Part shown: piece after piece, positions 44,804 through 47,995 of the stretch
How the letters are laid out: each line of letters starts with the position of its first letter
Numbering within the stretch: position 1 is the first letter of the stretch
Origin: Oxalobacteraceae bacterium OTU3CAMAD1
GTDB taxonomy: Bacteria > Pseudomonadota > Gammaproteobacteria > Burkholderiales > Burkholderiaceae_D
Direction of reading: 5' to 3'
DNA: 64,000 bases
NCBI GenBank assembly: GCA_024123915.1
Contig: CP099650.1
Location: forward strand, 4,712,001-4,776,000
Translations under genes and position numbers: made by a program
The notes under the pieces: generated by a model
What the model was told of the DNA's origin: nothing
The model's database searches: none
Seen by the model: only the letters and a program-made list of their open reading frames with translations

Positions 44804-45166
44804 ATGTCGCAGGAATTGGTTCTGGATAGCCGGGTCGGCTCCGCTAAGACCACCGCATGGTGGCTCTACGTGGTCCATGCCGTGAGCTTCGTCTTTTCGC
44901 TGGGCTTGTTCTCCGTGATCCCGCTGATCATTAACTACGTGCAACGTCCGGGCACCGAGGGCACCTTCGTGCACAGTCACCACACGTGGATGATCCGCTC
45001 GTTCTGGTGGTACGCGGTCTGGATGGCCTTTGGGTGGCTGCTCATGGTCACCATCATCGGTATTCCGATCGCCTGGCTGGTTTTGATCGGCGCCTGGGTC
45101 TGGAAAGCCTACCGTCTGATCATCGGCTTCATCCGCCTGAACGAAAACTCGGCGGCGCCGATCTAG
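44804..45166 (+). CDS. small membrane protein, DUF4870-like
   Basis: 120 aa with three hydrophobic helices (about residues 19-45, 65-85 and 85-108), separated by the segment QRPGTEGTFVHSHHTWMIRSF. The pattern of helix, polar HxxW(M)IRSFW loop and paired helices matches bacterial DUF4870/YccF-like small inner-membrane proteins of unknown function. The ribosome site AAGGAAA is good. The stop TAG sits in the palindrome CTAG, which on the other strand is the stop of the convergent udgX gene. Confidence 0.8.
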   Translation: MSQELVLDSRVGSAKTTAWWLYVVHAVSFVFSLGLFSVIPLIINYVQRPGTEGTFVHSHHTWMIRSFWWYAVWMAFGWLLMVTIIGIPIAWLVLIGAWVWKAYRLIIGFIRLNENSAAPI

Positions 45167-46668
45167 TCTTCCAGCAGGCGCTTCGCCTGCCGCAGGCCTT
45201 CGACGATCACCTCGTAGGCCTGCTTGCGCGTGGCCTCGTCCGGCGCGCGCAGCACATACGACGGATGGTACACCGTCACCACCCAACGGCCGTCGTGCTG
45301 AACCGGCGCGTCCATCACCGACTTCATCGTTACGCTGCCGTCCTGCAGCACCGACTTCAGCGCCGTGCTGCCGAGCGCCACCACCACCTCCGGGCGCACG
45401 CGCGCCAGCTCTTCCTCCAGCCACAGATGGCAAGCGGAGATTTCCTTTTGCGCCGGCGTCTTGTGCAGGCGGCGTTTGCCGCGCAGCTCCCATTTGAAGT
45501 GTTTGACCGCGTTGGTCAGGTAGATACTGTCGCGCTCCATGCCAGCCTGCGCCATGGCTTTTTCCAGCACCGCCCCGGCCGGGCCGACGAACGGCAAGCC
45601 CTGCAAATCCTCCTGGTCGCCCGGCTGCTCGCCGACCAGCATGATGCGCGCCCGCTTGGGCCCGACACCGGGCACCGCCTGCGTGGCGTTTTCCCACAGG
45701 TCGCAGCGGCGGCATTGGTCGAGCGTGGTCGGCTGCTCGCGCTGCGGTTGCGCGCGTTCCGGCGCGATCGGGATCGTGGTCGCGCCGCCGCGCCGGCCCA
45801 CGGCGCCGGTCTGGCCGGTGCGCCGCTCGCCATTGGCCGCCGCGCTGACCATCGCCGGCACGATCGCCCCTTCAGGCAGATTCTTCCAGAAACGCGACGG
45901 GATATGGCTGCGCAGCAGATCGGCGTTCAGGCGCGCCGGGTTGAAGATGCTGCGGTAGTATGTCAGCCACAAGGCCTCGCCGGCGTCCTCGATATCGGCG
46001 GCGCTGCGCATCAGCGACGGCGCCTCGTGCAGGTGCTCGCCGTCCCACAGCACGGCGGCTGCCGGCGTGGCGATCATCCACGTGACGTTGCCCATGCGCC
46101 GGGCGAAATGCCGCGCGACCTGCGGCAGCACCTCGTGGGTGGGTTCGAACCAGGCGACAAAGCGCGGCGCGCCATCCTCCTCCTTGCGCTCGCGAAAACG
46201 TACGTATGCGTGCATGTCATGCTCCTCCCGATGAACAGCCTTGACCATCCCGTGCAGCCGCGCGCCATCCGGATCGGCCGGCGAGATCACATCGCGCTCG
46301 CCCAGGTGCCAGCGCCACACCACCTTGTGCAGAAAGGACCAGCGGTCCGGGGCGCTGAAACAGGCTGCGCTGACGAGTAGCTCCATCAACTGGCGCGGCA
46401 GCCGAAGGGGACTTGTCAGCTTGACCCCGTCTACCTTTGCCGGAACGCAAGTGCCACCGCTTAGGGGTCGTACCCCTTCCGGGGTACGACCCCGCCCGGC
46501 CATGCGGGTTGGCGGCATGCAATCCTCATCCACCGGTGCGGTGGAGAATAAATCACCACCCCCGGGCTGCGATAACCATTCTACGAATTCAGGCGCGACG
46601 TGGCGCGCGATTAGCTCGCGTGCCGCGTCGCGCCACTCGTCGAACGACCGGACCACCCGCCGCATCAT
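45163..46668 (-). CDS. DUF4130 (TIGR03915)-UdgX fusion, uracil-DNA-binding repair protein
   Basis: 501 aa from the ATG at 46668, which overlaps the radical SAM stop (ATGATG/TGA). Residues 1-260 form the DUF4130 domain (MMRRVVRSFDEWRDAARELI; HAYVRFRERKEEDGAPRFVAWFEP; WLTYYRSIFNPARL). Residues 315-501 form a family-4-like uracil-DNA glycosylase of the UdgX type: CRRCDLW, GEQPGDQED (346-354) and the KRRxH loop seen as KRRLH (398-402), whose His in characterised UdgX becomes covalently linked to uracil-DNA. HPSYVLR follows near 468. Residues about 50-87 are a non-conserved insert encoded by a REP-like palindrome. It is cotranscribed with the upstream gene under a LexA box. Confidence 0.9.
   Translation of the reverse strand: MMRRVVRSFDEWRDAARELIARHVAPEFVEWLSQPGGGDLFSTAPVDEDCMPPTRMAGRGRTPEGVRPLSGGTCVPAKVDGVKLTSPLRLPRQLMELLVSAACFSAPDRWSFLHKVVWRWHLGERDVISPADPDGARLHGMVKAVHREEHDMHAYVRFRERKEEDGAPRFVAWFEPTHEVLPQVARHFARRMGNVTWMIATPAAAVLWDGEHLHEAPSLMRSAADIEDAGEALWLTYYRSIFNPARLNADLLRSHIPSRFWKNLPEGAIVPAMVSAAANGERRTGQTGAVGRRGGATTIPIAPERAQPQREQPTTLDQCRRCDLWENATQAVPGVGPKRARIMLVGEQPGDQEDLQGLPFVGPAGAVLEKAMAQAGMERDSIYLTNAVKHFKWELRGKRRLHKTPAQKEISACHLWLEEELARVRPEVVVALGSTALKSVLQDGSVTMKSVMDAPVQHDGRWVVTVYHPSYVLRAPDEATRKQAYEVIVEGLRQAKRLLED
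46464..46493. repeat. REP-like palindrome, TAC variant, copy 3, inside a coding sequence
   Basis: GGGGTCGTACCCC-TTCC-GGGGTACGACCCC, a perfect 13-bp stem, followed by the flank GCCCGGCCATGCGGGTTGG, similar to copy 1 reversed. It is read through in frame as about residues 59-69 of the DUF4130-UdgX protein. Confidence 0.9.
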
Positions 46669-47894
46669 GCCGCCTGCAACTCCGGCCACAAATTCATCTG
46701 CTGGGGCGCGTCGGCCATGGCGCGGCGCAGGTGCTCGGACGGGCCGGCGTCGTTGGACGGAAAATAGTCGGCCGTGATGATAAAGGGCGAAATCTTCTTC
46801 ATACTGCAGCGCAGCCGCGACAGATCGGCGTAGCGGATTTGCCGCAGCCGCCGCAGATCGATCAGCCGCTGCGCGTTGCGCAAGCCGATGCCCGGGATGC
46901 GCGCGATCATATGCGGCTCCGCGCGGTTCAAGTCCATCGGAAAATGCTCGCGATGCTCGAGCGCCCACGCCAGCTTGGGATCGATGTCGAGCGCCAGGTT
47001 GCCGGTCGCCGGCAGCAGCTCCTTGACCTGGAAGCCGTAACTGCGCAGCAGGAAATCGGCCTGGTACAAACGATGCTCGCGCAGCATCGGCGGCGGCGCC
47101 AACGGCACGCTTTTCGGGCTTTGCGGAATCGGGCTGAAGGCCGAGTAGTACACGCGTTTGAGCTTGTAGCTGCCGTACAGCGTCTCGGCCGTGGTCAATA
47201 TCTGCTGGTCGTCGCTGGCGTCGGCGCCGACGATCATCTGCGTGCTTTGCCCGGCCGGCGCGAAGCGCGGCGACTTCGGCTCCTCGGCCTTTTCATCGAG
47301 CTTGCGGCGGATGGAACCCATCGCCAGCTTGATCGTGTGAACGCTTTTTTCCGGCGCCAGCTTCTGCACACTGTCCTGCGTCGGCAGCTCGATATTGACG
47401 CTCAAGCGGTCGGCATAGCGGCCGGCCGCGGCGATCAACGCCGGGTCGGCGTCCGGGATGGTCTTCAGATGGATATAGCCGCGAAACTGGTGCACCTCGC
47501 GCAGTTCGCGCGCCACCTGCACCAACTGTTCCATAGTGTAGTCGGCCGACTGGATGATGCCGGAACTGAGAAACAGCCCGTCGATGTAATTGCGAAGGTA
47601 GAAATCGGTGGTCAGTTTGACCACCTCGGCGACCGTGAAACGGGCACGCGGCACGTTCGAGGTGCGGCGGTTGACGCAGTACTGGCAGTCGTACAGACAG
47701 TAATTGGTCAGCAGAACCTTCAGCAGCGACACGCAGCGACCATCCGGCGTATAGCTGTGGCAGATGCCCATGCCGGTGGTCGCGCCGAAACCATCCTTGC
47801 CGATCGAGTTGCGCTTCGGCGCCCCGCTGCTGGCGCAGGAGGCGTCGTACTTGGCCGCATCGGCCAGGATCTCCAGCTTATCCGTCAACTCCAT
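46665..47894 (-). CDS. putative DNA modification/repair radical SAM protein (TIGR03916)
   Basis: 409 aa from the ATG at 47894 (GAGG five bases upstream); an in-frame ATG at 47939 lies across the LexA box and is rejected. The radical SAM cluster motif CxxxCxxC is CLYDCQYC (C66, C70, C73). The middle has FLSSGIIQSADYTMEQLVQVARELR and GYIHLKTIPDADPALI, as in the family. A C-terminal helix-hairpin-helix (IARIPGIGLRNAQRLIDLRR, near residues 328-347) would bind DNA. The family is tightly linked with DUF4130/UdgX genes; the chemistry is unproven. First gene of the pair, with a LexA box 20 bp upstream. Confidence 0.92.
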   Translation of the reverse strand: MELTDKLEILADAAKYDASCASSGAPKRNSIGKDGFGATTGMGICHSYTPDGRCVSLLKVLLTNYCLYDCQYCVNRRTSNVPRARFTVAEVVKLTTDFYLRNYIDGLFLSSGIIQSADYTMEQLVQVARELREVHQFRGYIHLKTIPDADPALIAAAGRYADRLSVNIELPTQDSVQKLAPEKSVHTIKLAMGSIRRKLDEKAEEPKSPRFAPAGQSTQMIVGADASDDQQILTTAETLYGSYKLKRVYYSAFSPIPQSPKSVPLAPPPMLREHRLYQADFLLRSYGFQVKELLPATGNLALDIDPKLAWALEHREHFPMDLNRAEPHMIARIPGIGLRNAQRLIDLRRLRQIRYADLSRLRCSMKKISPFIITADYFPSNDAGPSEHLRRAMADAPQQMNLWPELQAA

Positions 47895-47913
47895 GCTTGC
47901 CTCGATCTGTCGA

Positions 47914-47933
47914 TGCTGTATAAAAACACAGTA
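47914..47933 (-). promoter_or_regulatory. LexA (SOS) box of the radical SAM-udgX operon
   Basis: TGCTGTATAAAAACACAGTA (given on the plus strand) fits CTGT-N8-ACAG exactly and the full E. coli-type 20-bp consensus closely. It lies 20-39 bp upstream of the start at 47894 and overlaps the minus-strand TATACT that could be the -10. Confidence 0.85.
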
Positions 47934-47995
47934 TAACAATGATCGAGGTCAAAAGGGGCTTGCGTGCGCGCTTGTCCAAACTTTGACCCGGTATT

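Follow-up and report, generated by a model that had tools for sequence, protein, structure and literature searches.

We examined a two-gene locus in a 64,000-nucleotide stretch of Oxalobacteraceae bacterium OTU3CAMAD1 DNA (hereafter the window; positions 4712001-4776000 within one 7.48-Mb contig), which encodes a radical S-adenosylmethionine (SAM) protein of family TIGR03916 and a fusion of DUF4130 to UdgX, a domain of the uracil-DNA glycosylase (UDG) type. From the sequence comparisons reported here, the two genes appear to be a real, well-conserved SOS operon, with the radical SAM protein and DUF4130 as its core, UdgX as an option and the ImuA-ImuB-DnaE2 mutasome as its setting. The operon most likely serves to process DNA lesions, with UdgX as a trap for uracil or abasic sites; a fuller reading, in which the radical SAM protein and DUF4130 act on a damaged base and UdgX shields gaps for the mutasome, is given a probability of about 0.5. 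An earlier reading of the same DNA from its letters (the original prediction) is corrected on one point, as the constant partner of the radical SAM protein is DUF4130 and not UdgX. The operon and its operator are laid out as follows:

47914..47933, minus strand: LexA operator, a 20-mer with its core CTGT-N8-ACAG at 47916-47931; 27.4 bits by the LexA matrix, kept in 80/80 named relatives.
46665..47894, minus strand: TIGR03916 radical SAM gene with a C-terminal helix-hairpin-helix (HhH); ATG at 47894, 409 aa, 545 bits.
45163..46668, minus strand: DUF4130-UdgX fusion gene; ATG at 46668, 501 aa; TIGR03915 190 bits, TIGR03914 250 bits.
46665..46668, minus strand: ATGA stop/start overlap of 4 bp, from the sequence and open reading frames (ORFs); the same overlap is present in 84/137 loci.

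Both the TIGR03916-type assignment and the 4-bp overlap had been proposed from the letters, and both stand: the sequence and ORF coordinates give ATGA, and the radical SAM protein scores 545.1 bits against a curated cut-off of 343.5. The second protein likewise exceeds the curated cut-offs of TIGR03915 (112.25 bits) and TIGR03914 (249.8 against 189.95 bits). Longer listed ORFs (TTG at 47939; GTG at 46968) are 5' extensions of these two frames.

On the gene strand, the operator core reads CTGTGTTTTTATACAG (47931-47916) and ends 21 bp before the radical SAM ATG. Across the whole genome, ACTGT-N8-ACAG occurs 33 times counted strand-wise and the reversed pattern 7 times; 19 stretches, which contain every one of these ACTGT-N8-ACAG sites except the window's own, were examined. 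The LexA matrix was built from six sites of this same genome, at lexA (two), recA, imuA, dnaE2 and dinB; among the reference genes, LexA scored 233 bits, RecA, Pol IV and ImuA scored above cut-off, the dnaE2 fragment, truncated where its stretch ends, gave 650 bits to error-prone polymerase, and imuB was named by position only. The window's box lies within the range of the reference sites (24.8-32.4 bits), and the second-best site in the window scored 6.1. Taken alone, the bare core has no statistical significance over 64 kb: base-count arithmetic predicts an exact CTGT-N8-ACAG about once in this length, and one-mismatch matches numbered 13 against 13.3 expected. We hold the box to be real because of its matrix score, its promoter position and its conservation at 80/80 orthologous loci, which bears out the near-perfect LexA box originally described. 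That it arose by chance is rejected on the score of 27.4 against 6.1 bits and on a conserved footprint across the 80 named loci.

The named loci are the best 80 of at least 572 and comprise Oxalobacteraceae, Burkholderiaceae, Pseudomonas and some metagenome-assembled genomes. The best site within 300 nt reached at least 9.0 bits at every locus (80/80), and no site at 8 bits was found in either control, one shuffle per upstream stretch (0/80) or one stretch within each gene (0/80). The core was exact in 77/80 loci and carried one mismatch in 3/80; its distance from the start codon, measured from the first base of the core, was 26-48 nt at 79 loci and 77 nt at one (29-32 nt in 68/80; 37 nt in the window). 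Conservation formed a discrete footprint, with the core at 1.7-2 bits and the 5-60 bp upstream of it at a mean of 0.12 and a maximum of 0.43 of 2 bits. A set of further genomes (n = 57; 53 from a draw of 299 across the phylum and 4 from a draw of the order, with G073 dropped as its gene is split over two frames) carried a canonical operator within 250 nt in 52 cases, against 6 for a scrambled motif. Inside the window's class this was CTGT-N8-ACAG with at most one mismatch (17/22 genomes), and outside it exact GTTC-N7-GTTC on either strand (35/35 genomes, presumably Alphaproteobacteria), the operator type given for Caulobacter in the available text of PMC9578287. A Leisingera plasmid copy has GAACATTATAAGAAC beginning 17 nt before the radical SAM gene.

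Two of the genomes lacking a canonical site (G025 and G116) belong to one family with G072, which has a one-mismatch site that is unusual in the same way, and all three have no LexA above cut-off and a divergent LexA at 98-100 bits. The divergent LexA's own promoter holds TGTACATTCGTACAGTA or TGTACGTTCGTACATTA; the same palindrome recurs in this family's radical SAM promoters with 1, 2 and 4 mismatches (equalled by 0, 0 and 3 of 1000 shuffles). Another genome (G272) has no site, no LexA above cut-off and a short S24 match (63 bits). Judged by sequence, the operator is conserved and has been rewritten in step with LexA's own specificity. LexA control of the operon, as first proposed, is thereby strongly supported (80/80 named loci and 52/57 further genomes), and the box whose absence upstream of orthologues was to have counted against it is present there, with two more of the 57 reached through their own divergent LexA palindrome. 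A divergent LexA was seen in one Burkholderiales family (f25; three genomes, L171, L172 and L173), where its own-promoter palindrome, TGTAC(A/G)TTCGTACA, is perhaps a separate LexA operator type. On a gut contig that is clostridium-like by impression, GAAC-N4-GTTC occurs twice, each time with one mismatch, at -47 and -23. On gut contig L163 (303-3143), a helix-turn-helix (HTH)-S24 repressor gene (70 bits to the LexA model, under cut-off) lies directly before radical SAM and DUF4130 genes, which suggests a local damage-sensing repressor; a GAAC-N4-GTTC-type site was not found upstream there.

The second protein of the operon contains the following features:

45871..46347, minus strand: DUF4130 domain, residues 108-266; Pfam PF13566, 124.1 bits against a cut-off of 27.
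45187..45762, minus strand: UdgX domain, residues 303-494.
45607..45633, minus strand: UdgX motif A, GEQPGDQED, from residue 346, by alignment.
45463..45477, minus strand: UdgX R-loop, KRRLH, from residue 398, with the presumed cross-linking His, by alignment.

Among 299 Pseudomonadota genomes, TIGR03916 exceeded its cut-off in 53, TIGR03915 in 56 and TIGR03914 in 52. DUF4130 accompanied the radical SAM gene without exception (53/53 genomes) and occurred without it in three genomes only, all of one genus (G392, G407 and G472). The proposed pairing of the radical SAM protein with UdgX holds for the window's operon, where the two are together; as a dedicated pair it is not supported, since 13 of the 53 radical SAM genomes either lack UdgX or have it below cut-off, and 12 genomes lacking the radical SAM gene have it above cut-off. 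A tree of 53 chosen UdgX domains (40 fused, 13 single) requires five changes between the fused and single states, at least four of them forced by well-supported branches, and in one genus a match to the end of DUF4130 persists in three single UdgX genes; because of these changes and remnants we regard UdgX as a separable module. SOS control seems to travel with the core, because the three DUF4130 loci without a radical SAM gene keep GTTC-N7-GTTC 160-219 nt upstream, while an exact GTTC-N7-GTTC was not found within 500 nt of six single UdgX loci. The predicted core is radical SAM plus DUF4130, with UdgX as an optional add-on module.

The UDG domain scores 121 bits in Pfam, fold searches with the fusion model gave matches filled by the UdgX domain, and family scores and motif positions confirm the DUF4130-UdgX fusion with intact GEQPGDQED and KRRLH that had been read from the letters. 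The R-loop His is present by pattern in 108/109 loci with motif A; L127, frameshifted in its UdgX half, is outside these 109. Widespread loss of the cross-linking His, a candidate raised by the strict KRRxH pattern, is rejected, as the aligned R-loop keeps the His with altered neighbours. Locus L106 (Pseudomonas sp. PDM16), alone of the 109, lacks the R-loop His and has GDQPGD in its UdgX half, although the neighbouring radical SAM gene is intact; its uracil trap looks to be decaying. According to the available text of PMC10359453, M. smegmatis UdgX cross-links abasic (AP)-DNA via H109, covalently captures uracil-DNA and has been proposed to protect AP sites under stress. The covalent hold on uracil sites that was originally ascribed to the KRRxH His agrees with this, and the operon's second protein can probably lock onto uracil in DNA. 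The PDB chains of M. smegmatis UdgX are single-domain (205-229 aa), whereas here UdgX is fused behind DUF4130 in a LexA operon. Genes for udgx are scattered among bacteria, Caballeronia included (available text of PMC10776899).

Mutasome linkage was examined in 40 loci with wide flanks, and mutasome genes lay beside the operon in 8 of them. Four of nine genomes in family f82 have dnaE2 directly 3' of DUF4130-UdgX, and the three with enough contig have imuA-like and imuB genes about 3-4 kb upstream; in 4 of five genomes in family f85, the operon is divergent from imuA-imuB-dnaE2 with one GTTC-N7-GTTC site between. For L208 and L209, the error-prone polymerase was confirmed and ImuB was identified by Y-family polymerase matches; ImuA in L209 is weak (29 bits, under cut-off), and other ImuA calls were made by similarity and position. 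The window's genome has LexA-type boxes before imuA and dnaE2 too, at a locus separate from the operon, whereas in the two families above the mutasome shares a promoter or operon with it. Unlike the mutasome, the operon encodes no polymerase.

The radical SAM protein contains the following features:

47676..47699, minus strand: radical SAM cluster motif C66-x3-C70-x2-C73, invariant in 65/65 aligned.
47733..47837, minus strand: extra invariant cysteines C20, C45 and C54 (and H46), 65/65 aligned; motifs in 137/137 loci.
46845..46985, minus strand: HhH region, residues 304-350, predicted DNA contact; Pfam HHH_5/HHH_3 below cut-off.

Its Pfam matches both fall below cut-off (Radical_SAM, 29.3 against 29.5 bits; HHH_5, 20.7 against 27 bits), and its AlphaFold2 (AF2) model has a mean predicted local distance difference test score (pLDDT) of 84.5. 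Profile comparison of the HhH region with the PDB picks up HhH chains of RuvA and of ComEA-related proteins (E 0.004-0.1), and HydE, lipoyl synthase and biotin synthase are among the 50 listed fold neighbours of the model. Residues C20, C45 and C54 are predicted to ligate a second Fe-S cluster; a second conserved cysteine triad is a likeness to lipoyl synthase-like auxiliary-cluster enzymes.

In the reading we prefer, DNA damage would lead to LexA cleavage, and the operon would be expressed alongside ImuA-ImuB-DnaE2. The HhH radical SAM protein and its obligate partner DUF4130 would perform 5'-deoxyadenosyl-radical chemistry on a damaged DNA base, with the second Fe-S cluster held by the three invariant N-terminal cysteines. 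The fused UdgX domain would excise uracil in single-stranded DNA and remain attached through His402 (the last residue of KRRLH), and uracil or abasic sites in replication gaps would be shielded from strand breakage during gap filling by the mutasome. Several observations weigh against this scheme. The 80 named loci include many that are closely related, and two of the further genomes (G058 and G291) have LexA yet no recognisable operator and are true exceptions. The operon is patchy within the genus, and because the radical SAM gene is found in 37/60 genomes of the genus we consider the operon accessory and dispensable. UdgX is above cut-off in 40/53 radical SAM genomes, and mutasome genes were found in 0/80 named loci (flanks of at most 4 kb). 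Within the radical SAM protein, residues 21-44, between the extra cysteines, are poorly modelled (AF2 pLDDT <50), and a profile comparison with lipoyl synthase shows nothing.

A wider proposal, which we advance tentatively, is that TIGR03916 is no SplB photolyase but a radical SAM enzyme that acts on DNA and carries an auxiliary Fe-S cluster at its N-terminus, that with DUF4130 it would be an ancient damage-induced mutasome repair enzyme, and that the covalent uracil trap was fused later in Pseudomonadota.

Direct reversal, in which the radical SAM protein would split a pyrimidine photoproduct like spore photoproduct (SP) lyase and UdgX would remove uracil from deaminated dimer cytosine, seems unlikely. 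The SOS control of a radical SAM protein that has an HhH region is in keeping with it, and the available text of PMC3765255 mentions SplB-like photolyases of the radical SAM kind alongside DUF4130 and UDGs 'which might modify thymines'. However, hhalign against 11 PA0069/SplB-like family sequences gave a probability of 4% (shallow profiles), SP lyase is not among the 50 listed fold neighbours, no SplB model is among the 11 NCBIfam matches listed, and the window's genome encodes a separate PA0069-family protein. An SplB label for the TIGR03916 protein found no support in the profile comparison or among the fold neighbours listed. SplB/COG1533/PA0069 proteins are radical SAM proteins too, and SplB is SOS-regulated in several species (available text of PMC8565304); the window's protein differs from them in its HhH region and extra cysteines, with no detectable profile similarity (again between shallow profiles).

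We also doubt that the operon serves sulfur or methylthio modification of a base, with the radical SAM protein sacrificing its auxiliary cluster by the logic of lipoyl synthase or MiaB and DUF4130-UdgX reading or editing that base; the cysteine triad is consistent with such chemistry, and the empty lipoyl synthase comparison does not favour it. It is very improbable that the task of the radical SAM/DUF4130 pair is to undo the covalent adduct which the fused UdgX domain makes with DNA: the adduct-former is fused to and co-regulated with the pair, but UdgX and the radical SAM gene do not always occur together, as counted above, and some of the UdgX genes without it are decayed fusions. An anti-phage system against uracil- or modified-base DNA, instead of repair, has an equally slim chance, for although the distribution is patchy, copies lie on 158 plasmid records and DNA glycosylases can act in defence (available text of PMC11078745), both the conservation of LexA control and the link to the mutasome are in line with repair. 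Phage origin found no support, as 8 of 10 'phage' records are gut scaffolds that carry no annotation, and the Acinetobacter record, the one examined, is evidently bacterial; viral contigs scanned with a single protein, a search whose reach is limited to close relatives, gave no match. In the stretch examined, the Acinetobacter record ('Acinetobacter phage MD-2021a', L161) contains glyS, glyQ and further cellular genes, and it looks like bacterial sequence deposited under a phage name.

We take COG4277 to be the TIGR03916 group. A COG1573-COG4277 two-gene operon, the same kind of gene pair as ours, belongs to a predicted Bacteroidetes SOS network and was read as base excision repair in the available text of PMC8565304, which cites a UDG-based system previously reported in Verrucomicrobia and Alphaproteobacteria. 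LexA control of the two-gene operon is thus not new in kind, being in print for other phyla. Unlike the operon in the available text of that paper, the one here is in Burkholderiales and Pseudomonas with CTGT-N8-ACAG, has DUF4130 as constant partner of the radical SAM protein and has its dnaE2 link mapped. LexA-controlled radical SAM proteins of unstated family have been described in Gram-positives and Balneolaeota (PMC7739468) and in Streptomyces (PMC9380542), in the available texts of both. The model names of TIGR03916 and TIGR03915 (rSAM_link_UDG and SAM_7_link_chp) already record their association. A literature search largely without subscription papers found neither a biochemical study of TIGR03916 or DUF4130 nor a report of a LexA operator in Burkholderiales. 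A gene pair kept under LexA through several operator rewritings, with no chemistry assigned in the papers found, is a good target, and two ideas become testable: a further kind of bacterial radical SAM DNA-repair enzyme, and covalent uracil capture that protects gaps during error-prone ImuB/DnaE2 filling.

Gene order was compared across 137 loci, a set of overlapping samples in which some genomes occur twice (G119 and L109 are apparently the same contig) and which does not represent 137 independent genomes. The adjacency count failed in 9/137 loci (G368, G222, G418, G430, G171, G338, G058, L077 and L095), and the G368 genes proved adjacent after all on a separate comparison. Spacing from the radical SAM gene to DUF4130 was at least 0.6 kb in G222, G418 and G430, 114 nt in G171, 128 nt in G338 and about 230 nt in G058; L077 stops at the contig end. 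One further feature lies within the fusion gene:

46424..46510, no strand assigned: dispersed palindromic element, in frame, in the linker before DUF4130; perfect 13-nt arms at 46464-46476 / 46481-46493.

This element sets the window's copy apart within the TIGR03916/TIGR03915 families and is much like the coding palindromic elements of Rickettsia. Scoring 40 of 169 candidates gave at least 58 strand-wise matches to it, spread over about 40 places of the genome. A similar insert, judged by eye, is present in 1/41 aligned relatives, Duganella sp. 1411, which is also the closest named relative among the matches listed (100% in the best segment).

Two other LexA-type palindromes of the same genome make SOS control of defence genes of the CBASS (cyclic oligonucleotide-based antiphage signalling system) type possible: one is located at the 5' end of a gene for a Cap4 nuclease (L003, box at 1624), the other upstream of one for a DncV-like nucleotidyltransferase (L015, box at 1589). 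A further LexA-type box stands before a FAN1-type nuclease gene (L011:1583-3101; FAN1_HTH, 127 bits).

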